Below are positions 6,264 to 20,318 of a DNA stretch of 64,000 bases, in pieces. The stretch is taken from positions 1 to 64,000 of the forward strand of contig JAIUPH010000002.1 in NCBI GenBank assembly GCA_020161065.1, given 5' to 3'. The number at the start of each line of letters is the position of its first letter. The stretch's first letter is position 1. Origin of the DNA: Pseudomonadota bacterium. Lineage in GTDB: Bacteria; Pseudomonadota; Gammaproteobacteria; Burkholderiales; Burkholderiaceae_C. The translations under genes and the position numbers were made by a program. The notes beneath the pieces are model-generated. The model had not been told where the DNA came from. It did not search any database and saw only the letters and a list, made by a program, of their open reading frames with translations.

Positions 6264-7445
6264 ATGTTCCGCATCACCCAATACCTGCGCGACCTGGCGC
6301 AGGCCGAAGCCACCGGCAGCTACCCGGCGGTCCGCGCCAGTCGGCCGTCAGGGCCGGTCGTCATCTGGAACCTCATCCGCCGTTGCAACCTGACCTGCAA
6401 GCATTGCTACGCGCTGTCGGCCGACCACGAGTACGCCGGCGAGCTGAGCACTGCCGAGGTCTTCACGGTGATGGACGACCTCAAGGCCTACCGCGTGCCG
6501 GTGCTCATCCTCTCCGGCGGCGAGCCGCTGCTGCGGCCCGACCTGTTCGAGATCGCCGCGCGCGCCAAGGCCATGCGCTTCTACGTCGGGCTGTCGAGCA
6601 ACGGCACGCTGATCGACGCCGCGGTGGCCGATCGCGTGGCCGCGGCCCATTTCGACTACGTGGGCATCAGCCTCGACGGCATCGGCGCCGTGCACGACAA
6701 GTTCCGCCGCAAGGTGGGCGCCTTCGACGCCAGCCTGGCCGCCGTGCACGAGCTGCAGGCGCGCGACGTGAAGGTGGGCCTGCGCTACACGATGACCTCG
6801 CTCAACGGCGGCGAACTGCCGGCGCTGCTGCAGTTGATGCGCGACGTGGGCGCGCACAAGTTCTACTTCTCGCACCTGAACTACGCCGGCCGCGGCAACA
6901 TCCACCGCAGCAAGGACGCCCACCACCAGGCCACGCGCGAGGCGCTGGACCTGCTGTTCGACACCGCCTGGGCCGACGCGCAAGCCGGCGCCGAGCGCGA
7001 ATACGTCACCGGCAACAACGATGCCGACGGCGTCTACCTGCTGCACTGGGTGCAGCGGCGCTACCCGCGCTGGGCCGGCGCCCTGCGCGAGCACCTCGTC
7101 GCCTGGGGCGGCAACGCCAGCGGCGTGATGGTGGCCAACATCGACAACCTGGGCCAGGTGCACCCCGACACGATGTGGTGGCACCACGGCCTGGGCTCGG
7201 TGCGCGAGCGGCCGTTCTCGCAGATCTGGGACGACGTGTCTGATCCGCTGATGGCCGGCCTCAAGGCGCGGCCGCGCCCGCTGCAGGGCCGCTGCGCGGC
7301 CTGCACCGAGCGCGCCGTCTGCGGCGGCAACACCCGCGTGCGCGCGCAGCAGCTCACCGGCAATCCGTGGGCCGCCGACCCTGGTTGTTATCTCGACGAC
7401 GCGGAAATCGGCCTGCAGCCGCAGGCGGCGGAGGCCGCGGCATGA
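6264..7445 (+). CDS. nirJ: Radical SAM heme d1 enzyme NirJ
   Basis: A 393-residue radical SAM protein. The cluster-binding CxxxCxxC is CNLTCKHC (Cys41, Cys45, Cys48), followed by the GGEP motif that contacts SAM. A C-terminal SPASM-like region has four further cysteines (CAAC, then VCGG and a final PGCYL), expected to hold a second Fe-S cluster. NirJ replaces the propionate groups of didecarboxysiroheme with oxo groups to give a pre-d1 intermediate. The open frame extends upstream into nirH in another frame. ATG 6264, just after the nirH stop, gives the family-standard N-terminus. The stop overlaps the nirN ATG (ATGA). Confidence 0.93.
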   Translation: MFRITQYLRDLAQAEATGSYPAVRASRPSGPVVIWNLIRRCNLTCKHCYALSADHEYAGELSTAEVFTVMDDLKAYRVPVLILSGGEPLLRPDLFEIAARAKAMRFYVGLSSNGTLIDAAVADRVAAAHFDYVGISLDGIGAVHDKFRRKVGAFDASLAAVHELQARDVKVGLRYTMTSLNGGELPALLQLMRDVGAHKFYFSHLNYAGRGNIHRSKDAHHQATREALDLLFDTAWADAQAGAEREYVTGNNDADGVYLLHWVQRRYPRWAGALREHLVAWGGNASGVMVANIDNLGQVHPDTMWWHHGLGSVRERPFSQIWDDVSDPLMAGLKARPRPLQGRCAACTERAVCGGNTRVRAQQLTGNPWAADPGCYLDDAEIGLQPQAAEAAA

Positions 7446-8929
7446 AGGCCCTGGCCTGGGCCTGGCGGCTGGCGCTGGCCGGCGCGCTGTGCGCCGCCGG
7501 CGCCGAGCTGGCCTCGGCGCAGGGCGTGGACGCCGGCGCGCTGTACCAGCAGCACTGCGCCAGCTGCCACGGCGCGCAGCGCACCGGCGGCATGGGCCCG
7601 GCACTGCTGCCCGAAAGCCTGGCGCGGCTGCGCAAGCCGGAGGCGCTGAAGACCATCACCCAGGGCCGCGCCGCGACGCAGATGCCGGGCTTCGCCGACA
7701 AGCTGGACGCCGCGCAGATCCAGGCGCTGGTGGGCCTGGTCTACACGCCGGTGCTGCCGGCGCCGCGCTGGAGCGACGACGACATCCGCGCCTCGCGCGA
7801 GGCGATGGCCGACGCCGCCAGGCTGCCGGCCAAGCCGCAGTGGCAGGCCGACCCGATGAATCTGTTCGTCGTCGTCGAAGGCGGCGACCACCACGTCTCG
7901 CTGCTCGACGGCGACCGCTTCGAGGTCATCCACCGCTTCGCCAGCCGCTACGCGCTGCACGGCGGGCCGAAGTTCACGCCCGAGGGGCGCTGGGTCTACT
8001 TCGGCTCGCGCGACGGCTGGATCACCAAGTACGACCTGTGGAACCTGAAGGTCGTGGCCGAGGTGCGCGCCGGCCTCAACATGCGCAACGTGGCCGTCAG
8101 CGGCGACGGGCGCTGGGTGATGGCGGCCAACTACCTGCCGGGCAACGTGGTGCTGTTCGACGCCGATCTCAAGCTCGTCAAACGTTGGGATGCCGGCTCG
8201 CGCGTCTCGGCCGTCTACGATGCCACGCCGCGCAAGAGCTTCGTCGTCGCGCTGAAGGACGTGCCCGAGCTGTGGGAGCTGGCCTGGGACGGCGCCAGCC
8301 TGCGCCGCACCCGGCTGGACGAGCCGCTGGACGACTTCTTCTTCGACCAGAGCTATCGCCACGCCCTGGGGGCGACGCGCGAGCGCGCCGACGGCAGCGC
8401 CGGCGCCCAGGTGGTGGATCTGGAGCAGCAGCGCAAGGTGGCCGAGCTGCCGATCGCCGGCATGCCGCACCTCGGCTCGGGCATCACCTTCGCGTGGAAC
8501 GGCAGCACGGTGCTGGCCAGCCCCAACCTGAAGGGCGGCGCGATCGACGTCATCGACATGAAGGACTGGAAGGCGGTGAAGACCATCGCGACGCCGGGCC
8601 CGGGCTTCTTCATGCGCAGCCACGAGGCGACGCCTTATGCCTGGACCGATTCGATGATGAGCCCGACCGCCAAGGACACGCTGACCATCATCGACAAGCG
8701 CACGCTGCAGCCGGTGGCCAGCGTGCGCGAGCCCGGCCGCACGCTGGCGCACATCGAGTTCACCAAGGATGGCCGTTATGCGCTGGCCAGCGTCTGGGAA
8801 GACGACGGCGCGCTGGTCGTCTACGACGCCGCGACGCTGAAGGAAGTGAAGCGGCTGCCGATGCGCAAACCGGTGGGCAAGTACAACGTGTGGAACAAGA
8901 TCACGCGGTCGGAGGGCACCTCACATTGA
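7442..8929 (+). CDS. nirN: Heme d1 dehydrogenase NirN (cytochrome c / d1-type propeller)
   Basis: A 495-residue periplasmic protein. A signal peptide ends near ASAQG. A cytochrome c domain with CASCHG (Cys39, Cys42, His43) is followed from about residue 125 by an eight-bladed beta-propeller homologous to the d1 domain of NirS. NirN oxidises dihydro-heme d1 to heme d1, the final step before insertion into NirS. NirN and NirS are paralogues. NirN is preferred because of the gene order nirF-DL-G-H-J-N and the short MGPAL-type cytochrome domain. The last codons overlap the convergent nirE by nine bases. Confidence 0.85.
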   Translation: MKALAWAWRLALAGALCAAGAELASAQGVDAGALYQQHCASCHGAQRTGGMGPALLPESLARLRKPEALKTITQGRAATQMPGFADKLDAAQIQALVGLVYTPVLPAPRWSDDDIRASREAMADAARLPAKPQWQADPMNLFVVVEGGDHHVSLLDGDRFEVIHRFASRYALHGGPKFTPEGRWVYFGSRDGWITKYDLWNLKVVAEVRAGLNMRNVAVSGDGRWVMAANYLPGNVVLFDADLKLVKRWDAGSRVSAVYDATPRKSFVVALKDVPELWELAWDGASLRRTRLDEPLDDFFFDQSYRHALGATRERADGSAGAQVVDLEQQRKVAELPIAGMPHLGSGITFAWNGSTVLASPNLKGGAIDVIDMKDWKAVKTIATPGPGFFMRSHEATPYAWTDSMMSPTAKDTLTIIDKRTLQPVASVREPGRTLAHIEFTKDGRYALASVWEDDGALVVYDAATLKEVKRLPMRKPVGKYNVWNKITRSEGTSH

Positions 8930-9760
8930 TGGGGCCGCCAAGGCCCCGGCGAGGAACGGCGTGGCCAACTGCTCGTGCAACGCCACCACCTCGCCGACGA
9001 CGATCAGCGCCGGCGGCCGCACGCCTTGGGCGCGCGCCAGGTCGGGCAGCGTGCGCAGCGTGCCGGTGACGGTGCGCATGCCGGCGCGGGCGATGTTTTC
9101 CACCACGGCGGCCGGCGTGTCGGCGCCGCGGCCGTGCGCGATGAGCCGCTCGCACAGCAGCGGCAGCGCGCCCACGCCCATGTAGACCACCACGGTCTGC
9201 CGCGGGCGCGCCAGCAGTTCCCAGTCGAGGTCCAGCGTGCGCTGCTCGCCGTCGCCGCGCAGGTGGCCGGTGGCGAAGACCAGGGTCTGCGCGTGGTCGC
9301 GGTGGGTCAGCGGCATGCCGGCCAGCGCGGCCGCGCCCTGCGCGGCGCTGATGCCCGGAACCACCTCGAAAGGCACGCCGGCGGCGGCCAAGGCCTGCGC
9401 TTCCTCGCCGCCGCGGCCGAAGATGTAGGGGTCGCCGCCCTTCAGCCGCAGCACCGGCCGCCCGGCCAGTGCCAGGCGCAGCATCAGCGCGATGATCTGG
9501 TCCTGCGGCAGCGTGTGGTGGCCGGCGCGCTTGCCGACGTCGATGCGCTCGGCGCTCGGCGGCAGCAGGTCCAGCACCTCGTCGCTGACGAGCTGGTCGA
9601 TCAGCACCACCTCGGCTTCGCGCAAGGCGCGCACGGCGCGCAGGGTCAGGAGTTCGGGATCGCCGGGGCCGGCACCCACCAGGGTGACCTTGGCGGGACG
9701 GCCCGCCGCCGGCGGTGGCGGCGTCGGCGCCAGGTGCAGCGACAGGTGCAGATCGGACAA
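8921..9760 (-). CDS. nirE: Uroporphyrinogen-III C-methyltransferase NirE/CobA
   Basis: A 279-residue SUMT that methylates uroporphyrinogen III twice with SAM to precorrin-2, the entry to siroheme and heme d1. Family motifs are VGAGPGDPELLTLRA (P-loop-like), LKGGDPYIFGRGGEE and VVPGISAAQGAAA. It has no CysG-like N-terminal dehydrogenase domain. The start is TTG 9760, preceded at six bases by GGAG. No in-frame ATG fits. NirE is chosen over a general CobA because the gene abuts the nir operon and has its own FNR/DNR-type promoter matching that of nirC. Its 3' end overlaps nirN. Confidence 0.85.
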   Translation of the reverse strand: MSDLHLSLHLAPTPPPPAAGRPAKVTLVGAGPGDPELLTLRAVRALREAEVVLIDQLVSDEVLDLLPPSAERIDVGKRAGHHTLPQDQIIALMLRLALAGRPVLRLKGGDPYIFGRGGEEAQALAAAGVPFEVVPGISAAQGAAALAGMPLTHRDHAQTLVFATGHLRGDGEQRTLDLDWELLARPRQTVVVYMGVGALPLLCERLIAHGRGADTPAAVVENIARAGMRTVTGTLRTLPDLARAQGVRPPALIVVGEVVALHEQLATPFLAGALAAPSM

Positions 9761-10222: not shown

Positions 10223-11635
10223 ATGGTACAGATGCAACAGACGGGGTCTTCGCCCGCTTCGGCGCGGGATGCGCGCCCGCGCGGGCCCGCTCGACGCCCG
10301 GCCTCGGGCGGCCGAGCCGGTCGGTGGGCGCGGCGCCTGCCCGTGCTGGCGTGCGCGTCGCTGCTGTGCGCCGCGGCGCAGGCCGCCGACCCCGCGCCCG
10401 CGGCGACGACGGCCGGCGCCTCCGATCCGGCCAACTGGCATTTCTCGGGCTTTGCCACGCTGGGGTGGATGCAATCGCGCGCCGACCAGCCCTGGCGCTT
10501 CTCGCGCGACCTCACGCAGCGCGGCGCCGGCGGCGACGGCAGCGCGCGCACCGACAGCCGGCTGGGCATGCAGGTGCACGGCGACCTGGCCAGCAACGTC
10601 GAGGCGGTGACGCAGGTCGTGCTGAAGGAGCGGCCCTTGAACGCCCGCGCCAGCGAGTACCTGGAGCTGGCCTTCCTCGGCTTTCGCCCGACGCAGAACA
10701 TGAGCGTGCGCGTCGGCCGCACCAGCCCCGATCTCTTCCTGCTGGCCGACGTGCGCAACGTCGGCATCGCCTACCCCTGGGTGCGGCCGAGCGTCGAGTA
10801 CTACGGCTGGATGCCGTTCTCGTCGATGGACGGCGTCGATGCCAGCGCGCAGTGGACGCTGGGCGGCGCCAACTGGGTGGCCAAGCTTGGCGCCGGGCAG
10901 ATCCGCAGCACCATCGGCGTCGTCGACCGCGACACCAGCGTCACCCTCACCGGCCGCGACACCGTGGCCGCCATGGTCTCGCGCGAGGCCGACGGTCTGC
11001 TCATCAAGGCCAGCTTCCTGCGCACGCGCATGGACGGCCGCTCGCCGCCGGCCGTGCAGCAACTGCTGCCGGCGCTGGACGCCTTGGCGCAGCTCGACCC
11101 CTTGCCGGTGGCCGGCGAAGCGGCCGCGCTGCGCGAGGCGCTGGGCTTCGGCGGCCTGACCCGCTACATGGCGCTGGGCCTGCAGTACGACAGCGGCCCC
11201 TGGACCCTGCATGCCGAAGGCAGCCGCGTGCGGCTGGAACGCGGCGTGTCCGGCGGCGACCGCGGCTACGTGAGCGCCAGCTACCGCTGGAACCGTTTCA
11301 CCGGCTACGTGATGGCGGCCCGCGCGCGCCCCGAACAGCGGGCCATGGGCTTGCAGACCGACTGGGCCGCCGCGCTCACGCCGGTGCTCGGCGCCGCGCA
11401 GGCGCAGCAGGCCGCGGCGCTGGGCATGGGCGCGCTGTACGCGGCCAATCAGGCGCGCTTCAACCAGAGCACGGTCAGCCTGGGCCTGCGTTGGGACTTG
11501 TTCGATGCGGGCGCGCTGAAGCTGCAGTGGGACAATGTGCATGTCCACGCCGACGGCACCGCCGCCTGGCGCAGCGCTTCACCATCGGACAACCGCGCGC
11601 AGGTGTGGTCCGCCGCAGTCGACGTGAGCTTCTGA
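10223..11635 (+). CDS. Outer-membrane beta-barrel (porin-like) protein
   Basis: A 470-residue exported protein. A long basic n-region precedes a hydrophobic core ending in AAAQAADP, a plausible signal peptide. The mature part has alternating aromatic/polar beta strands typical of a barrel (for example FSGFATLGWMQ, LELAFLGFRPT, RGYVSASYRWNRF) and ends in the terminal strand VWSAAVDVSF with a C-terminal Phe, the outer-membrane assembly signal. Its exact porin family and substrate are not recognised. It is the first gene of a four-gene operon with a phosphate-receptor-like protein and two c-di-GMP enzymes, which suggests a sensory rather than purely nutritional role. The start is uncertain: ATG 10223 or 10232, neither with a ribosome site. 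Confidence 0.7.
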   Translation: MVQMQQTGSSPASARDARPRGPARRPASGGRAGRWARRLPVLACASLLCAAAQAADPAPAATTAGASDPANWHFSGFATLGWMQSRADQPWRFSRDLTQRGAGGDGSARTDSRLGMQVHGDLASNVEAVTQVVLKERPLNARASEYLELAFLGFRPTQNMSVRVGRTSPDLFLLADVRNVGIAYPWVRPSVEYYGWMPFSSMDGVDASAQWTLGGANWVAKLGAGQIRSTIGVVDRDTSVTLTGRDTVAAMVSREADGLLIKASFLRTRMDGRSPPAVQQLLPALDALAQLDPLPVAGEAAALREALGFGGLTRYMALGLQYDSGPWTLHAEGSRVRLERGVSGGDRGYVSASYRWNRFTGYVMAARARPEQRAMGLQTDWAAALTPVLGAAQAQQAAALGMGALYAANQARFNQSTVSLGLRWDLFDAGALKLQWDNVHVHADGTAAWRSASPSDNRAQVWSAAVDVSF

Positions 11636-11636
11636 C

Positions 11637-12089
11637 ATGCGCAACCGACTCAAGCAGATTCTTGCGGGTGTCGCGCTGGCGTTGGCAAGCTGGCCGGGCC
11701 TGTCCGCGGGGGCGCCGTTGTACGTCGTCGTCAATGCGAGCAACCCGATCCAGAAACTGGCCGTGCGCGACGCCGTCGCGCTGTACACGGGCCGCACCCG
11801 CACCTTCCCCGACGGCCGCGAAGCGGTGGCCTACGACCAGGCCGAAGCCAGCGCCGTGCGGGCCGAGTTCTACCGCTCGCTGACCGGCATGGACCTCGCG
11901 CGCATCAACAGCTACTGGGCGCGGCTGCGCTTTTCCGGCCAGGTGCAGCCGCCGCGCATGCTCAACGACGACGGCCAGGTGGCCGCCACGGTGCGCGCCG
12001 ACCCCAACGCCGTGGGCTACCTGCGCAGCGCGCCCACCGATCCGGCGCTGAAGGTGGTGCTGGTCATGACTGCGGCGGCGGCGGATTGA
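11637..12089 (+). CDS. Small periplasmic phosphate-receptor-like protein
   Basis: A 150-residue protein with a signal peptide ending near LSAGAP. The mature part resembles the PstS-like half-domain found as short stand-alone proteins: YVVVNASNPIQKL near the N-terminus, a basic RTRTFPDG loop, and GYLRSAPTDPALKVVLV at the C-terminus. It is much shorter than transport receptors (about 320 residues), so it probably senses or delivers a ligand rather than feeding an ABC permease. None is encoded nearby. It starts one base after the barrel stop and overlaps the following cyclase gene by a single base (TGATG). Confidence 0.65.
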   Translation: MRNRLKQILAGVALALASWPGLSAGAPLYVVVNASNPIQKLAVRDAVALYTGRTRTFPDGREAVAYDQAEASAVRAEFYRSLTGMDLARINSYWARLRFSGQVQPPRMLNDDGQVAATVRADPNAVGYLRSAPTDPALKVVLVMTAAAAD

Positions 12090-13822
12090 TGGCTGCGGGC
12101 GTTCAGGCCGCGATGCGCGGCTCGACCAGCCTGCACCGACGCTTCATCGTCGTGCTGGTGCTCAGTGCATCGGCCCTGGCGCTGGTGGCCGCCGCCGTCA
12201 GCTACGCCTTCGCGCACCGCTACGCGGTCGATCGCGCGCACAACTCGCTGCGCGCGCTGACCGACGCGGTGGAAAAGACCGTGGCGGTGGCCGTCTACGC
12301 CAATGACCGCGTGCTGCTGCAGGAGCTGACCGACGGCATCCGCAAGCACCCGCTGGTGCAGCGCGTGGACGTGCGCGATGCGCAAGGCCGCACGCTGGGC
12401 GCGGGCGACGACCACCCCGACGCCGCCGCGCCGCCGGCGCCCGATTCGTTCCAGCGCGACCTGTGGTCACCCTTCGACAGCAGCGAGCGCCTGGGGCGGC
12501 TGCACATCAGCGTCGACGGCCGCTCGCTGCTGCAGGAAGCGCGCAGCCAGGCCTCGGCGCTGGGCCTGTTCATGGTGGCACTGATCGCCATCCTGGCCTT
12601 CGTGCTGCACCAGCTGGCGCTGCGCCTGCTGTCGCGGCCCTTGACGCAACTGGCCAGCGAGCTGGCGGCCATGGAGCCGGGCTCGTCCAACCGCATCAGC
12701 CTGCCCGAGCTGCATGCCAGCGACGAGATCGGCGTGGTGGCGCGCGCCACCAACCGGCTGCTGCAGGCGCACGACGACGCGCTGCACCGCGAGCGCGCCG
12801 CGCGCGAGGAGGTGTCGGCGATGGAGGCGCGCTACCGCCACATCTTCGACATCTCCAGCGCCGGCATCTTCGTGCTGACGCCCGAGGGCGAGCTGGTCTC
12901 CAGCAACCCGACGGTGGCGCGGCTGGTCGGCAGCACCGCGCAGGCGCTGGCCGCCGACGTCGGCACGCAGTTCATCGACAACGTGTTCCTCAACGCCGAG
13001 CGCGCGCGCGAGCTGATCGCGCAGGCCGTGGCCGGGCGCGAAACCACCTCCGGCGACCTCGGCCTGCGCTGCGTGGACGGCGCCTTCAAGTGGGCGCACT
13101 GCCTGTTCTCGCAGCACGAAGACCCCAACAACCACGACCACCAGCTGATCCAGGGCGTGATGTACGACATCACCCAGCGCAAGCGCGACGAGCAGGCGGT
13201 GCGCCGGCGCATCCACGTCGACCCGCTGACCGAGCTGCGCAACCGCGCCGGCATCCTGGCAGGCCTGGACGAGGCGATCGACGTCGTGCGCGATCCCGAC
13301 GCCCAGGTGACCATCTTCTACGTCGACCTCGACGGCTTCAAGGGCGTCAACGACCGCTGGGGGCATGCCGTCGGCGACCAGGTGCTGATCGAATGCGCCA
13401 AGCGGCTGCTGGCGCTGGTGCGCCGCAGCTCCGACTTCGTCGGCCGCCTGGGCGGCGACGAGATGCTGATGGCCATCCGCGGCATGGCGCCGGACAGCGA
13501 ACGCGTGCAGGAACTGGCCGCGCAGATCGTGGCCGCGATCTCGGGGCCCGTCGAGATCGGCCAGGGCCGCCTGGCCCAGGTGGGCGCCAGCATCGGCGTG
13601 GCCGGCTTCCCGCAGCACGCGCGCACGGCGCCGGAACTGCTGGCCGCCGCCGACCAGGCCATGTACCGCGCCAAGCGTTCGGGCAAGGGCCGCTTCGTGG
13701 TCGCGCAAGGCGCGCCCGGCCCGGCGCGGCCGGCCGACGCCGCGCCGCCGCCCGTCGACAAGGCCGCGCCCGCCGAGCCGCCGGCCAGCGACGAAGGGAT
13801 GGTGGCGGGAGCGCCGCGATGA
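12089..13822 (+). CDS. Membrane diguanylate cyclase with HAMP and PAS (GGDEM)
   Basis: A 577-residue inner-membrane protein. It has a first membrane span (about 18-42), a periplasmic domain to about 150, a second span (about 155-178), HAMP (about 180-235), a coiled segment, a PAS domain with C-terminal PAC (about 250-370) and GGDEF (about 380-545). The active-site loop reads GGDEM (residues 455-459), with Met for the usual Phe. The RSSD inhibitory site five residues before it is intact, and the metal-binding Asp in YVDLDGF is present, so activity is likely but worth testing. The C-terminus is an Ala/Pro-rich tail. It lies between the periplasmic binding protein and an EAL gene, overlapping both. 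The ATG at 12089 is taken; a TTG at 12086 is also in frame. Confidence 0.85.
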   Translation: MAAGVQAAMRGSTSLHRRFIVVLVLSASALALVAAAVSYAFAHRYAVDRAHNSLRALTDAVEKTVAVAVYANDRVLLQELTDGIRKHPLVQRVDVRDAQGRTLGAGDDHPDAAAPPAPDSFQRDLWSPFDSSERLGRLHISVDGRSLLQEARSQASALGLFMVALIAILAFVLHQLALRLLSRPLTQLASELAAMEPGSSNRISLPELHASDEIGVVARATNRLLQAHDDALHRERAAREEVSAMEARYRHIFDISSAGIFVLTPEGELVSSNPTVARLVGSTAQALAADVGTQFIDNVFLNAERARELIAQAVAGRETTSGDLGLRCVDGAFKWAHCLFSQHEDPNNHDHQLIQGVMYDITQRKRDEQAVRRRIHVDPLTELRNRAGILAGLDEAIDVVRDPDAQVTIFYVDLDGFKGVNDRWGHAVGDQVLIECAKRLLALVRRSSDFVGRLGGDEMLMAIRGMAPDSERVQELAAQIVAAISGPVEIGQGRLAQVGASIGVAGFPQHARTAPELLAAADQAMYRAKRSGKGRFVVAQGAPGPARPADAAPPPVDKAAPAEPPASDEGMVAGAPR

Positions 13823-15711
13823 CGGCCGTGCTCGACCCGGCCGGCGAACACGGCCGCCTGGCCGAGCTGGCCCGCTACGACGTGGTGATGGACCGCGAGG
13901 AGCCGGCGTTTTCCGACGTCGCGGCGCTGGCGGCGCGCATCTTCAAGGTGCCGCTGGCCGGGGTCAGCCTGGTCGACTCGGCGCACGTCTGGATCAAGGG
14001 CCGCCACGGCGTCGACCTCAACTGCCTGAGCCGCGACGGCGCGTTCTGCAGCTTCGCCGTCGAGTCCAACCAGGAGCTGTTCGAGGTCGTCGACACGCGC
14101 AAGGACCAGCGCTTCCGCGCCAACCCGCTGGTCACCGGCCAGCCGCACGTGCGCAGCTACCACGCGGCGGTGCTGGTCGGGCAGCGCGGCTACGCGCTGG
14201 GCACGCTGTGGATCATGGACGCCAAGGCGCGGCCGCTGCAAGCCGGCGAGGCCGACATCCTGATGGCGCTGGGCGCGCAGGTGGTGCGCCTGCTGGAGCT
14301 GCAGTACCGCTCGGCGGCGTCGGGGCTGCCGGCGCGCTCGGCCCTCGTCGCCAACCTGCAATGCGCGCTGAACCAGGCGCGCGGCGGCAGCCAGGCCTGC
14401 CGGGTGGCGCACTGCAGCCGGCTGCTGCCCTCGGGCGACTGCATGAGCGCGCGCCAGCGCAAGGCCGCGCGCGTGGGCTTCGTGCAACTGCGCAACCTGC
14501 CGCTGATCCACAGCCTGTACGGTCACGACGTGGGCCGCCAGGTGGTGCAGACGGTGGCCGAGCGCATGCAGCAATGGAAGAGCCCCGGCGACATGCTGGG
14601 CCAGGTGAACGACGCCAGCTTCGCTTTCGCGATGTTCCAGGGCGCGCGCCGCGACGACGACCGCCTGCTCGACCTGGAGCGGCTGCTGTCGCGGCCGGTG
14701 CAACTGGGCGCCGAGTCGATCAGCCTGGGCTGCAGCATCGGCCTGTCGGACAGCGCCGACGGCGCGGGCATCGCCTCGGCGCTGCTCGACCGTGCCGAAG
14801 TCGCCGCGTCGCAGGCGCAGCCGGTGGCCCGCACGACGGTGCGCATCTTCGACGACCGGCGCCTGCAGGAAGCGCGCGAGCAGGCGCGCGTCGAGCGCTG
14901 CCTGAGCGAGTGCATCGCCACGCGCCAGGTGCAGCCCGGCTACCAGCCGCAGGTGGACGTGGTCAGCGGCCGCGTCATCGGCTTCGAGGCGCTGGGCCGC
15001 CTGCAGCACGACGCCGAGGGCCTGCTGCTGCCGGGGCACTTCCTGGACACGGCCTTGTCGACCGGGCAGATCCGCCGCATCGACATGCTGATGGTCGAGC
15101 GCGTGTGCCGCGACCTGGCGGCCTGGCGCGAGCGCGGGCTGCCGGTGCTGCCGGTGGCCATCAACCTTTCGCGCGAGTCGCTGCTGCACGAATCGACGAT
15201 CGAGTCGATCTCGACCATGCTCGAAGAGCTGGAGCTGCCGCCGAGCCTGATCAGCATCGAGATCACCGAAAGCGGGCTGGAGGAATCGGCCGACCTCGTC
15301 AACCAGCGCGCGCGCGACCTCAAGCGCATCGGCCTGCGCGTCGAGCTCGACGACTTCGGCACCGGGCTATCCAACCTGGACACGCTGCGCCTGCTGGAGT
15401 TCGATTGCCTGAAGGCCGACCGCCAGTACGTGCACGGCGTCTCGGTCAACCTGCACACGGCCGCGCTGCTGCACCTGATCCGCAACGTGTCGGAGCTGTT
15501 CGGCGTGCGCCTGATCTGCGAGGGCCTGGAAGACGAGGGCGACCTGCGCTGGGCCGTCAAGCACGGCTTTCGCTACTTCCAGGGCTGGTACTTCAGCCGC
15601 GACATCGACGCCGATGCCGTGGCCCGGCTGCTGGTCGACATGGACGCGCAGCCGCCGGCGGCCTTCGCCAACGACCCCGACGCGCTGGCGCGCTTCCTGC
15701 AGCGCCCCTGA
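13819..15711 (+). CDS. GAF-GGDEF(degenerate)-EAL c-di-GMP phosphodiesterase
   Basis: A 630-residue cytosolic protein: GAF (about 25-165), a GGDEF-fold domain that has lost its signature (QVNDASF at the active-site position; about 200-345) and EAL (about 365-610). EAL catalytic and metal ligands are all present: EAL at 390-392, NLS, EITES, DDFG, LKADRQYV, CEGLED and QGWYFS. It should therefore hydrolyse c-di-GMP, with the GGDEF relic serving as a regulatory GTP site. Its ATG overlaps the stop of the cyclase gene, so synthase and hydrolase are made together. This fits a local, input-controlled c-di-GMP circuit. Confidence 0.88.
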   Translation: MTAVLDPAGEHGRLAELARYDVVMDREEPAFSDVAALAARIFKVPLAGVSLVDSAHVWIKGRHGVDLNCLSRDGAFCSFAVESNQELFEVVDTRKDQRFRANPLVTGQPHVRSYHAAVLVGQRGYALGTLWIMDAKARPLQAGEADILMALGAQVVRLLELQYRSAASGLPARSALVANLQCALNQARGGSQACRVAHCSRLLPSGDCMSARQRKAARVGFVQLRNLPLIHSLYGHDVGRQVVQTVAERMQQWKSPGDMLGQVNDASFAFAMFQGARRDDDRLLDLERLLSRPVQLGAESISLGCSIGLSDSADGAGIASALLDRAEVAASQAQPVARTTVRIFDDRRLQEAREQARVERCLSECIATRQVQPGYQPQVDVVSGRVIGFEALGRLQHDAEGLLLPGHFLDTALSTGQIRRIDMLMVERVCRDLAAWRERGLPVLPVAINLSRESLLHESTIESISTMLEELELPPSLISIEITESGLEESADLVNQRARDLKRIGLRVELDDFGTGLSNLDTLRLLEFDCLKADRQYVHGVSVNLHTAALLHLIRNVSELFGVRLICEGLEDEGDLRWAVKHGFRYFQGWYFSRDIDADAVARLLVDMDAQPPAAFANDPDALARFLQRP

Positions 15712-15741: not shown

Positions 15742-16716
15742 CTACTCGCGGCTCGTCACCACGCCGGCGGCATGCGCCTGCTGGTCGGCGTGGTAGCTGC
15801 TGCGCACCATCGCGCCCACGGCGGCGTGGCTGAAGCCCATCGCGTAGGCCTCGCGCTCGAACATCTTGAAAGTGTCGGGGTGCACGTAGCGGCGCACCGG
15901 CAGGTGGTGGCCGCTGGGCGCGAGGTACTGGCCGATGGTCAGCATGTCGATGTCGTGCGCGCGCATGTCGCGCATCACGGCGAGGATCTCGTCGTCGGTC
16001 TCGCCGAGGCCGACCATCAGCCCGCTCTTGGTGGGCACGTCGCTCACCTGCTGCTTGAACTTGCGCAGCAGGCTCAGCGAGAACTGGTAGTCCGAGCCCG
16101 GCCGCGCCTCTTTGTACAGGCGCGGGATGGTCTCCAGGTTGTGGTTCATCACGTCGGGCGGCGCGGCCTTCAGGATGGTGAGCGCACGATCGTCGCGGCC
16201 GCGGAAGTCGGGCACCAGGATCTCGATCTGCGTGGCCGGCGACAGCTCGCGCGTGCGTTCGATGCAGGCCACGAAGTGCGCTGCGCCGCCGTCGCGCAGG
16301 TCGTCGCGGTCGACGCTGGTGATCACCACGTACTTGAGCTTGAGCGCGGCGATGGTGCGCGCCAGGTTCAGCGGCTCGTCGGCGTCCAGCGGGTCGGGGC
16401 GGCCGTGGCCGACGTCGCAGAACGGGCAGCGCCGCGTGCACTTGTCGCCCATGATCATGAAGGTGGCCGTGCCCTTGCCGAAGCACTCGCCGATGTTGGG
16501 GCAGCTCGCTTCCTCGCACACGGTGTGCAGCTTGTGCTCGCGCAGCACCTGCTTGATCTCGTAGAAGCGCGTGCTCGGGCTGCCGGCCTTGACGCGGATC
16601 CACTCGGGCTTCTTCAGCACTTCGGCGGGCACCACCTTGATCGGGATGCGCGAGGTCTTGGCCTGCGACTTCTGCTTGGCGCTGGGGTCGTAGGCGGCGG
16701 GGGTGGGGGTGGTCAT
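15742..16716 (-). CDS. lipA: Lipoyl synthase
   Basis: A 324-residue radical SAM enzyme that inserts two sulfurs into the protein-bound octanoyl chain. Both cluster motifs are visible: [12 protein letters not shown] for the auxiliary, sulfur-donating cluster and CTRRCPFC for the radical SAM cluster. The C-terminal RSSYHADQQ contains the conserved serine ligand of the auxiliary cluster. The start is ATG 16716; the open frame further upstream belongs to lipB DNA in another frame. A TACACT -10-like element lies about 30 bases upstream. It follows lipB on the same strand, the usual Burkholderiales arrangement. Confidence 0.95.
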
Positions 16717-16787
16717 CGCGGAAGGCCGGGGCTGCGAAACGGGGCCGACAGTGTAGCCAGCGCGGCTTTCCCGGCGCTGAGCGGCGC

Positions 16788-17462
16788 CTATGCCGGCCGC
16801 AGCAGCAGGCGCTGCAGTTCGGCGGCCAGGCGCTCGGCGGCCTCGTTCCAGTCGGCCGACACGCCCAGGCTGCGCAGATCCACCGTCGGCAGCCCGGCAT
16901 AGCCGCAAGGGTTGATGCGCGCATAGGGCGCCAGGTCCATGGCCACGTTCAGCGCCAGCCCGTGGTAGGCGCAATGCCGCGACACCTTGATGCCCAGCGC
17001 GGCGATCTTGCCCAGGCCCGCGAACGGGTCCTGGCCGGGTCCGGCGCTCGGCAGCGCCGCGTGGTCGAAGGGGTCGGCCAGCCGCACGTAGATGCCCGGC
17101 GCGCCGCGCACGCGGTGGCCGGTGACGCCATAAGCCGCCAGCGTGCGCAGCACCGCTTCTTCCAGCCGGTAGACGTATTCCTTGACGTAGATGCCCAGCC
17201 GGCCGAGGTCGACCAGCGGATAGGCCGTGACCTGCCCGGGCCCGTGGTACGTGACCTGGCCACCGCGCTGCGTCTGCACCACCGGGATGTCGCCGGCGCC
17301 CAGCACATGCTCGGCGCGGCCGGCCAGGCCTTGCGTGAACACCGGGTCGTGCTCGACCAGCCACAGCTCGTCGTCGGTCGCGGGGCCCCGCGCGGCGGTG
17401 AAGTCGCGCATCGCCGCCTCGATCCCGGCATAGGGCTGGCGGCCCAGCAGCTTGACTTGCAT
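16788..17462 (-). CDS. lipB: Octanoyl transferase LipB
   Basis: A 224-residue octanoyl-ACP:protein N-octanoyltransferase that supplies the substrate for LipA. Family motifs are [12 protein letters not shown], the catalytic Lys region [12 protein letters not shown] and the catalytic Cys in NPCGY. ATG 17462 is chosen over the longer open frame to 17534 because it gives the standard N-terminus ([11 protein letters not shown]). It also sits seven bases after a TACACT -10-like element with no Shine-Dalgarno, which suggests leaderless translation. Confidence 0.93.
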
Positions 17463-17520
17463 GCGCGGCAGTGTAGGGCCCGATGGACAGCGGGACGGCG
17501 CCGCGCCTATCGTGAGCCCC
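17463..17520. promoter_or_regulatory. Divergent promoter region lipB / DsbA-fold gene
   Basis: Both flanking genes show a -10-like hexamer ending exactly seven bases before their ATG: TACACT (17475-17470, minus) for lipB and TATCGT (17508-17513, plus) for the 17521 gene. Neither has a ribosome-binding sequence. Both are candidates for leaderless mRNAs. Confidence 0.4.
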
Positions 17521-18126
17521 ATGAGCACGCCCATCCGCTTCTACTTCGACTTCTCGTCGCCCTACTCCTACATCGCCAACGAATGGCTGGACGCGCTGGC
17601 CGCGCAACATGGCCGCGCGGTCGAGCGCCACGCCATCCTGCTGGGCGTGACCTTCCAGGCCGCCGAGCTGAAAAGCCCCGTGTCGTACCCGATCAAGCGT
17701 GAGTACTCGGTGCGCGACTTCGCGCGCTCGGCGCGCTTCCACGGGCTCGACTACAAGCTGCCCGACCCGTTCCCGATTCCCACGCAGAACGCCGCGCGCG
17801 TGTTCTGGTGGCTCAAGGACAGCCGCGGCGAGGCCGCCGCCGCCGCCTGGGCCAACGCCGGATTGCGCGCCGTGTTCCAGCGCGGCCTGCCGCTCAACGA
17901 CGCCGCCACGCTGAAGGCCGTGGCGGCCGAAGCCGGCATCGACCCCGCCGAGGCGGAAAGCGTCTGGAACGACCCCGTGTGGAAAGACCGCCTCAAGCGC
18001 GCCAACGAGGCCGCCATCGCCGCCGGCGTCTTCGGCGCGCCCTTCTTCATCGTCGACGGCGAGCCCTTCTGGGGCAACGACCGCCGGCCGCAGATCGAGC
18101 GCTGGGTGGCGTCAGGGGCGTTTTGA
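17521..18126 (+). CDS. DsbA-fold 2-hydroxychromene-2-carboxylate isomerase family protein
   Basis: A 201-residue cytosolic protein of the thioredoxin-fold HCCA isomerase / kappa-class GST family. It begins [14 protein letters not shown], where the serine replaces the Cys-containing site of DsbA, and ends with [20 protein letters not shown], the cis-Pro loop and substrate-binding tail. Relatives isomerise 2-hydroxychromene-2-carboxylate in naphthalene breakdown using glutathione. No other aromatic catabolic genes are nearby, so the true substrate is open. It stands alone, divergent from lipB. Confidence 0.8.
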
Positions 18127-18144: not shown

Positions 18145-20238
18145 TCAGACAAAGGCGCAGAAGCGCACGCCCTCGGCCAGCCAACCCTTGCTGATCATCT
18201 GCTGATACACCGCCTTGTCGGTGGTGAAGCGGTGGTTGGAGTCGTTGAACATCCAGCGGTTGTTGTAGACGCGGTAGACCGGCACCGAATCGCCCGGGCA
18301 AGTGCCGTCGGGCAGCGGCAGCTTGGCGTAGAAGCCGGTGCCTTCGTAGGTCCAGCCGGGGTCGAGCTTGACCTGCTCGCAGTCGTAGCCGCTGGCGATG
18401 TAGACGTGCGAGTTGGGCCCCCGGCCCGGCGTGCCGTAGAAGCGGCAGATCGGAATCGCGCCTTCGACCGCGCTGGTCCAGCCGTAGAAGTAGTCGCCGG
18501 TGTCCAGCCAGCCGTGGCCGGCCTCGCCGCGGTTGACGCCGGCGGCGTCGCTCTTCTTGCCGGTGCGGAAGTAGTGGTTCAGGTCTTCGTTGTAGAACTC
18601 GTAGACCAGTTGGTAGTCGGCCATCACCACCGCCACGCCGGCCGTCACCAGCGCGTTGGCGATGCCGCTGCCGCAGACCTTGAGCGTGTTGCACGACGAC
18701 GAGGCCGGGAACTCGCTGGCCGCCAGCTCGATGATGTAGCGCAGCTCTTCGCCGGCGAGCTGGTCGTTGAGCCCGAAGGCCAGGCTGGCAATGCCGGCGA
18801 CGTGCGGCGCCGCCATGCTGGTGCCCTGCTTGCGGCTGTAGCCATAGCCCGTCAGCGTCGTGTCGCCCAGCCCGACCGTGGAATAGATGCCGCCCGCGGC
18901 GCCATGGCGGTCCATGTCGCCGCCGGGCGCCGCCACCTGGCCGGCGAAGCTGTAGTTGCTGTAGGACGCCAGCTCGCCGCTGCGGTCCACCGCCACCACC
19001 GTCATCACGCCTTCGCAGTTGGCCGGGACATAATGCTCGAAATCATCGGAATCGTTGCCGGCCGCCACCACCAGCAGCGCGCCCTGGCCGCGCGCCTCGG
19101 CGATGGCATCGCGGTAGCTGCGCTGGCAGCCCGTCGGGCTGTAGCCGCCGAGGCTGAGGTTGATCACGTGCGCCGGGTGCGTGTTCTTGGGCACGCCGGG
19201 AACGTCGAGCCCCGCCGCCCAGCGGATGCCGTCGACGATGTCGGACACCGTGCCGCCGCAGCGCCCCAGCACGCGCACCGGCAGGATGCGCGTGTTCCAG
19301 TCGATGCCGGCCACGCCGAGGTTGTTGTCGCCGCCGGCGGCGATGATGCCGGCCACGTGGGTGCCGTGCCAGCTGCTGGACTCGGCGGCGCTGCCGCTGC
19401 CGCAGAGGCCGGCCGTGGTCCAGTCGCCGGGATCGGTGGCGTTGCCGTCGCGCCCGTTGCCGTCGTTGCCGTTGGAGGCGCTGGAAACGAAGTCGTAGCC
19501 CTGCAGCAGGCGCGACCCGAAGTCCGGGTGCGCGACCACGCCGCTGTCGACCACCGCGACGACCGTGGCCGTCGAGCCGATGAAGTACTCCCACAGCGCC
19601 GGCGCGTCGATCCCGCCGGGATAGCCTTGACTGGCGCCGCGCAGGTTCCACTGTTGGCTGAAGCCGGGGTCGTACGACAGCCGCCGGTGCTGCAGCAGCC
19701 AATCGGGCTCGGCCCGCTCCACCGCAGACAGCTGCGCCACCCGCTCGGCCAGCGCCGGCGCCACGCCGGGATCCACCTCGGCATCGAAACGGAAGACGAC
19801 CTGCCCGCCGCTCATCGGCCGCAGGTAGCTGAGCGCGACGCCGGCGGCAGCCGCGATGTCCGCCACCAGCGCCGCCGACGGCGCCTGCCCGGCCGCCAGC
19901 GCGCGGCGGCTTTCGGGGTCGCGCAGCCGCAGCACCAGGCCGACGGCGCGCGCCTGGCCTGCCGCCGGCACTGCCGCGGCCGGCGTTGCGGCCATCGCGC
20001 GCCGCATCAGCGCGGCGCGCTGCCGGCGCTGCGCCGCGGCCGCCACCTGCGGCTCGAAGCCCTGGCGGACGAGCACGCGGGCCAGGCGCTCGCGCAGGTT
20101 CTCGGCGGGCGAGGCCGTCGGGCCGGCGGCGGAATCGTCGGCGGCCAGGGCCGGCACTGCGACCAGACAAGCGGCCGCCAAGCCCAGCACTCGCGCCATC
20201 GAGCGAAAACCATTGCGGCGCTGCCGGCCTCGATTCAT
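18145..20238 (-). CDS. Secreted subtilisin-like serine protease (S8) with C-terminal repeat domain
   Basis: A 697-residue exported subtilase. It has a signal peptide (ending near ALAAD), a pro-region (about 35-190) and a catalytic domain (about 195-530) with Asp231 in VVDSG, His291 in HGTHVAG and Ser474 in GTSMAAPH. The C-terminal 155 residues (about 540-697) hold a two-fold repeat with YEFYNEDLNHYFRT and VYRVYNNR...NHRFTTD. This resembles the DUF5648 surface-adhesion-type module of secreted proteins. ATG 20238 is preferred to 20244 because GGGAG lies six bases before it. Six or more cysteines in the mature part suggest disulfides. It is probably released or surface-attached. Confidence 0.88.
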   Translation of the reverse strand: MNRGRQRRNGFRSMARVLGLAAACLVAVPALAADDSAAGPTASPAENLRERLARVLVRQGFEPQVAAAAQRRQRAALMRRAMAATPAAAVPAAGQARAVGLVLRLRDPESRRALAAGQAPSAALVADIAAAAGVALSYLRPMSGGQVVFRFDAEVDPGVAPALAERVAQLSAVERAEPDWLLQHRRLSYDPGFSQQWNLRGASQGYPGGIDAPALWEYFIGSTATVVAVVDSGVVAHPDFGSRLLQGYDFVSSASNGNDGNGRDGNATDPGDWTTAGLCGSGSAAESSSWHGTHVAGIIAAGGDNNLGVAGIDWNTRILPVRVLGRCGGTVSDIVDGIRWAAGLDVPGVPKNTHPAHVINLSLGGYSPTGCQRSYRDAIAEARGQGALLVVAAGNDSDDFEHYVPANCEGVMTVVAVDRSGELASYSNYSFAGQVAAPGGDMDRHGAAGGIYSTVGLGDTTLTGYGYSRKQGTSMAAPHVAGIASLAFGLNDQLAGEELRYIIELAASEFPASSSCNTLKVCGSGIANALVTAGVAVVMADYQLVYEFYNEDLNHYFRTGKKSDAAGVNRGEAGHGWLDTGDYFYGWTSAVEGAIPICRFYGTPGRGPNSHVYIASGYDCEQVKLDPGWTYEGTGFYAKLPLPDGTCPGDSVPVYRVYNNRWMFNDSNHRFTTDKAVYQQMISKGWLAEGVRFCAFV

Positions 20239-20318
20239 TGCCATCTCCCGGGTATGGCCCAAATTACAGCACGGCCTAACGTCCACTCAGCGGCGTCTGC
20301 CCCCTAGTCTGCAGCGGA

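Follow-up and report, generated by a model that had tools for sequence, protein, structure and literature searches.

We report that four genes at positions 10223–15711 of a 64,000-nucleotide stretch from a Pseudomonadota bacterium of the Burkholderiaceae_C (the window; assembly GCA_020161065.1, contig JAIUPH010000002.1, positions 1 to 64,000) encode an outer-membrane barrel, a small secreted protein that corresponds to one lobe of the phosphate-binding protein PstS (hereafter half-PstS), a membrane diguanylate cyclase and a candidate phosphodiesterase. We propose, at a probability of about 0.55, that the barrel and half-PstS form an input pair that regulates the adjacent receptor, an arrangement like the YfiBNR system with two unrelated parts. 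The argument draws on the conservation of the pair in relatives, on the agreement between half-PstS and receptor phylogeny, and on remote homology of the cyclase sensor to CHASE8 receptors.

A predicted porin and a single PstS lobe are encoded with a diguanylate cyclase

All four genes lie on the forward strand and abut or overlap, as an earlier note on this DNA had described. The barrel gene (10223..11635, +) is an open reading frame (ORF) of uncertain start (ATG at 10223, ATG at 10232 or GTG at 10343) and is followed after a single base (joint +1) by the half-PstS gene (11637..12089, +). The stop of the latter shares one base with the ATG of the cyclase gene (12089..13822, +; joint -1, TGATG), whose own stop shares four bases with the start of the phosphodiesterase gene (13819..15711, +; joint -4, ATGA). 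The same note held that no transporter is encoded, and we likewise saw no ATP-binding cassette (ABC) transporter gene in the window.

The barrel is predicted to adopt a general porin fold. Its AlphaFold2 (AF2) model (pLDDT, a per-residue confidence score, 82.2, with residues 1–55 below 50) matched OmpF-, PorB- and BpsOmp38-type porins in Foldseek at E ~1e-12. Pfam Porin_4 was matched at E <= 0.1 by 35 of 46 aligned barrel members (best 2.5e-14); the window barrel gave no match to Porin_4, and the barrel profile had no credible match among PDB sequences. OprO and OprP, both phosphate porins, do not stand out from the many other Foldseek matches, and so we see no sign of phosphate selectivity.

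The half-PstS protein, secreted and 150 residues long, has a fold homologous to PstS and the PBP_like_2 phosphate-binding proteins, but aligns only to residues 103–237 of 1twy_B: it retains the middle lobe and has lost the second, and with it the two-lobed PstS architecture. The label "PstS-like" given to it previously therefore holds for the homologous lobe, while a complete ligand-binding protein is not supported, a single lobe being all there is. The phosphate motif of the PstS middle lobe, R..GSGT, is visible in the aligned PstS rows; the window protein has QAEASAV at those positions, and among 202 distinct homologues R occupies the motif place in 3%, G stands five places after it in 3%, and T at the last place falls outside the four commonest residues. 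The best-conserved part of the family is an insert of about residues 88–107 that has no PstS counterpart, and W94 and P106 are nearly invariant across the 202 sequences. With the motif and the second lobe gone and no transporter gene in sight, we rejected phosphate or phosphonate, previously put forward as the ligand, as the default stimulus. Because they are akin to PstS, such short proteins probably tend to be annotated as components of phosphate transport. A viral library searched with the half-PstS model returned no match at E <= 0.001.

These features also bear on a reading that we consider unlikely, in which the lobe is a ligand-loaded co-receptor: it would bind a small molecule admitted by the porin and then dock on the cyclase as NspS does, the porin doing nothing but admit the ligand. 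PstS ancestry and a porin-fold neighbor would suit such a role, and there are precedents for solute-binding proteins on which cyclic di-GMP (c-di-GMP) receptors depend: NspS, a periplasmic protein of solute-binding type, is reportedly required by the receptor MbaA. Another, ArtI, is reported to be required for arginine sensing with STM1987 (PMC8846402). One lobe of two, however, leaves no clam-shell site, and the loss of R..GSGT, the failure to see a transporter gene in the window and the concentration of conserved residues in a stretch that PstS does not have all speak against ligand loading.

The cyclase is a membrane protein with a periplasmic sensor, as had been claimed, in the predicted order membrane segment, CHASE8-like domain, membrane segment, HAMP, PAS and GGDEF; Pfam matched PAS and GGDEF, with HAMP weak and below cut-off, and the two membrane segments were placed by inspection. 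The active-site motif GGDEM is intact, and the inhibition site (I-site) reads RSSD. When a profile of 54 receptor N-terminal regions was aligned by hhalign to one of 16 CHASE8 receptors from the same order, 12 of which have YfiR adjacent, the match reached a probability of 96.4 (E 1.4e-9) over 180 columns that take in the membrane segments and the start of HAMP. By this profile comparison, the cyclase N-terminal region is a remote homologue of YfiN-like CHASE8 receptors. Across 60 genomes from the order, YfiR (DUF4154) adjoined CHASE8 at 18 of 32 places; the window's own genome contains neither Pfam family at E <= 0.001 (0 matches to PF13689).

The earlier contrast between this operon and Yfi thus holds for the barrel and half-PstS, and fails for the cyclase, which is Yfi-like. 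It is highly improbable that the module is simply a diverged YfiBNR, with the small protein being YfiR and the barrel having replaced YfiB by descent. Such an origin would fit the fact that both systems combine an outer-membrane protein with a small periplasmic one and a CHASE8-type cyclase, but we rejected half-PstS as a YfiR homologue on its comparison with the YfiR profile (P 0.1).

The pair is conserved next to several kinds of receptor

We sampled half-PstS homologues in three ways that share few genomes, giving the 202 distinct sequences. Of 200 genomes from the order, 44 had a match; the window's own is one of them, and the four further genomes of its family in that set gave no match. 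From these, 67 of 69 places were retrieved, 66 with a half-PstS ORF (order sample). Of 200 genomes from the family, 45 had a match, again including the window's own, as did one of two further genomes of its genus; 60 of the 72 places outside the window's genome were retrieved (family sample). Finally, a single scan with a five-sequence subfamily profile supplied the best 80 of 98 confirmed stretches (named loci; subfamily sample), which were picked by half-PstS similarity and not by their neighbors, and still sample the cyclase-linked subfamily. In this material the protein family occurs mostly in beta- and gammaproteobacteria, with a few genomes or metagenome-assembled genomes (MAGs) under other names.

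A barrel gene stands adjacent to half-PstS or one gene off at 54/66 places in the order sample, 76/80 in the subfamily sample and 55/60 in the family sample; at three of the four subfamily loci without one, the start of the contig leaves too little upstream sequence. The cluster contains a GGDEF gene at 15/66, 71/80 (GGDEF or GGDEF-EAL) and 10/60 places, respectively. The window's genome (6.3 Mb) has 33 GGDEF matches, two of them in the four-gene operon, and against this background the retention of a GGDEF gene at 71 of 80 independently found loci argues against a chance grouping. Elsewhere the pair is accompanied by a chemoreceptor (3/66, 0/80 and 21/60), a histidine kinase (6/66, 1/80 and 0/60) or a SpoIIE-type phosphatase (1/66, 0/80 and 3/60), so that, with cyclases and GGDEF-EAL proteins, five kinds of receptor adjoin it. 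A recognised receptor is lacking at 41/66, 8/80 and 26/60 places, a tally that includes one contig end and the places where nothing but a second barrel was recognised.

Receptor motifs were counted in 84 proteins, the window's included. Among the 55 GGDEF-only receptors, 53 carry GGDEF, GGDEM or GGDEL and the other two GGEEF and GSDEF. Only 10 of the 29 GGDEF-EAL receptors keep GGDE[FLY], so that in many relatives the output of the pair may be degradation of c-di-GMP and not its synthesis. An RxxD inhibition site of the window type occurs in 17 of the 84.

The fourth gene of the window is not part of the conserved unit. Its product, a candidate soluble phosphodiesterase, matches Pfam EAL at 7.3e-55 and a degenerate GGDEF at 2.7e-9, with an N-terminus that has no Pfam match and looks GAF-like by eye; EALGR, N, EITES, DDFGTG, K, E and QG can be read by eye, and the catalytic set appears complete when compared with the EAL signature. 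A separate EAL gene directly 3' of the cyclase is found only in the window and at L109 (one of the 80 subfamily loci, none in the other two samples), a Pseudomonadota MAG whose half-PstS is 69% identical to the window's in the best segment. Other close relatives that were compared encode either a GGDEF-EAL fusion as receptor or just a cyclase. The EAL gene is accessory and not conserved as a separate gene. We therefore abandoned the four-gene unit of the earlier note in favor of barrel, half-PstS and cyclase, which are widely kept together.

Several loci depart from the common layout. The pair, or the whole module, occurs in tandem on one contig at L043/L044, L073/L075, L143 and L145. In L090, L095, L096, L100, L104, L105 and L107 the order is half-PstS, barrel and then an EAL or GGDEF-EAL protein of 408–997 residues, and their divergent half-PstS proteins carry M where G52 is usual (by eye). 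Receptor-less pairs lie upstream of genes read by eye as htpG at L042, L043 and L048, and as ppc at L067 and L071. The window's own genome holds a second, distant pair (L088, contig C32; half-PstS 30% identical, E 1.6e-10), which sits behind one large hybrid histidine kinase-like gene and one response regulator-like gene, both recognised by motif search.

Half-PstS tracks receptor type and the receptor N-terminal region

The phylogeny of half-PstS tracks receptor type. On a quickly built tree (122 columns, many unresolved forks) of 201 labelled rows, receptor labels need 33 changes, compared with a mean of 87.8 after shuffling; the 128 receptor-linked rows need 10 such changes, against an average of 32.7 and a minimum of 28 in 200 shuffles, and removal of the subfamily sample and the window leaves 26 changes versus 53.2. 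The histidine-kinase label is hardly clustered (6 changes over 7 rows, equally low in 32 of 500 shuffles).

Distances point to a particular part of the receptor. Among 57 non-redundant operons out of 80 complete ones, half-PstS distance correlates with that of the receptor's first 240 residues at r 0.86, or 0.78 as a partial correlation given the GGDEF domain, whereas the partial correlation with the GGDEF domain given those 240 residues is 0.03. Half-PstS and barrel distances also remain correlated given the GGDEF domain (partial 0.69), and neither 0.78 nor 0.69 was reached in any of 500 permutations. Since half-PstS follows the receptor N-terminus and not the GGDEF domain, and since that region is homologous to CHASE8, the data support action of the pair on the N-terminus. 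This much survives of the complete ligand-to-c-di-GMP circuit suggested by the earlier note, once the complete binding protein, the four-gene unit and phosphate are set aside. Columns 93, 91 and 90, within the insert, best separate cyclase-linked from chemoreceptor-linked half-PstS proteins, which we treat as a lead only.

A number of points weigh against an input pair acting on its receptor. Columns 116, 55, 107 and 133, outside the insert, separate the classes almost as well, and just three independent pairs underlie the receptor-specific columns, so that phylogeny could be the cause. Part of the distance correlations could come from co-inheritance within operons together with unequal rates, and the share of the GGDEF domain may be too low if that domain is saturated. 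In the whole window cyclase, Pfam CHASE8 stays below threshold (E 0.013), and it is found at E <= 0.01 in only 3 of the 54 receptor N-terminal regions, the window's included (best 2e-6). The hhalign control, built from the N-termini of 11 chemoreceptors linked to the same half-PstS family, scored 0.3 and 2.5 against the two profiles, but from a shallow alignment of 11 close sequences (Neff, the effective number of sequences, 1.7). Receptor and context labels came from our own profiles and seed searches, and the check by Pfam covered nine non-cyclase receptors only, which it bore out with all three kinds represented. Lastly, 73 of the 201 labelled half-PstS proteins have no recognised receptor adjacent, so the pair may serve a function apart from any receptor.

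This last point, together with the pairs that adjoin genes read as htpG or ppc, would fit an uptake or envelope-maintenance unit with which the cyclase is merely co-transcribed while sensing its own ligand. We regard this as improbable, and less likely than a ligand-loaded lobe, given how regularly a GGDEF gene accompanies the subfamily, the agreement of half-PstS type with receptor type, and the tracking of the receptor N-terminal region in place of the GGDEF domain.

Proposed mechanism

Building on gene order, predicted folds, homologies and the correlation of half-PstS type with receptor type, we infer physical contact, a direction of control, a stimulus and a role for the EAL protein, as follows. 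The input pair of barrel and half-PstS would feed the adjacent receptor, here a YfiN-like diguanylate cyclase. The half-PstS lobe would contact the CHASE8-like periplasmic domain of the cyclase, much as YfiR acts on YfiN, and also the periplasmic face of the porin, either alternately or together with the cyclase; contact is likely to run through the insert (residues ~88–107). Porin state, or a solute close to the porin or inside its pore, may shift how the lobe is seated on the receptor, and this shift would be relayed through HAMP and PAS to GGDEF to set c-di-GMP synthesis, which the soluble EAL protein would counter locally as a brake. Pairs of this kind would in relatives be wired to GGDEF-EAL receptors, chemoreceptors, histidine kinases or SpoIIE-type phosphatases.

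A broader version, which we advance tentatively and at rather less than even odds, is that the pair is a general plug-in sensory front end in Gram-negative bacteria: a porin coupled to one PstS lobe which, having given up ligand binding, now serves as an adaptor for protein contact, among whose exchanged receptors are cyclases, cyclase/phosphodiesterases, chemoreceptors, histidine kinases and SpoIIE-type phosphatases, and which would report on the porin or the outer membrane and not on phosphate.

Genomic surroundings of the operon

The cluster is flanked by a tetrapyrrole methylase gene (8921-9760, -) and by a radical SAM gene resembling lipoyl synthase (inside 15742-17742, -). The former adjoins a gene whose product is a heme protein of cytochrome d1 type that also has a cytochrome c domain (7367-8929, +), and the two may belong to a heme d1 locus for denitrification. 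The window also encodes a further GGDEF domain (2039-2512, +) within an open frame of 848 residues, and a subtilase (Peptidase_S8) with a C-terminal DUF5648 domain (18145-20286, -). A promoter scan found 0 sites (0.2 in shuffled sequences), one terminator-like site was seen (1.7 in shuffled sequences), and an Rfam scan of the window at gathering scores gave zero matches.

Comparison with known systems

The closest parallels are tripartite. In YfiBNR of P. aeruginosa, YfiR represses YfiN and the outer-membrane YfiB counteracts YfiR, and HmsCDE of Y. pestis is a tripartite c-di-GMP module, as reported in PMC2837407 and PMC4887326 for the former and in PMC8846402 and PMC5550408 for the latter. 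Like both, the module described here encodes together an outer-membrane protein, a small periplasmic protein and a membrane cyclase with periplasmic sensor, HAMP and GGDEF. Unlike YfiBNR, its periplasmic protein is a PstS lobe and not DUF4154/YfiR, its outer-membrane part is a porin-fold barrel and not an OmpA/Pal lipoprotein, its cyclase carries an additional PAS, and relatives of the pair also adjoin chemoreceptors, kinases and SpoIIE-type phosphatases.

LapD, a degenerate c-di-GMP receptor that combines a degenerate GGDEF and an inactive EAL in one protein, is likewise a membrane HAMP protein of c-di-GMP signalling, but the window cyclase has an intact GGDEM and its EAL is on a separate protein. 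With PstS and PBP_like_2, half-PstS has a homologous lobe and fold in common; it differs from PstS in having one lobe, no phosphate motif, a conserved insert and no ABC genes seen nearby in the window. As in NspS-MbaA of V. cholerae and ArtI/STM1987 of Salmonella, a periplasmic protein of solute-binding ancestry is paired with a c-di-GMP receptor. NspS and ArtI are regarded as complete binding proteins of two lobes and are not known to have a porin gene as partner, whereas half-PstS is single-lobed and has a porin gene as partner. Of 27 families in the periplasmic binding protein clan, only SBP_bac_3 had been studied in c-di-GMP networks according to PMC8846402, a review on c-di-GMP sensing, and in searches of open-access papers, judged by titles and the starts of abstracts, we recognised no description of a porin/PstS-like/cyclase module.

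If our proposal is correct, half-PstS proteins are adaptors of an unstudied envelope-sensing module and supply inputs to cyclases, chemoreceptors and kinases whose stimulus is unknown. CHASE8-type domains would then have small periplasmic partners of two kinds, YfiR and a PstS lobe, which are unrelated to each other, and what CHASE8-type receptors sense would become directly testable. Taken together, the control of a cyclase by envelope proteins is known, and the make-up of porin, half-PstS and cyclase is new.

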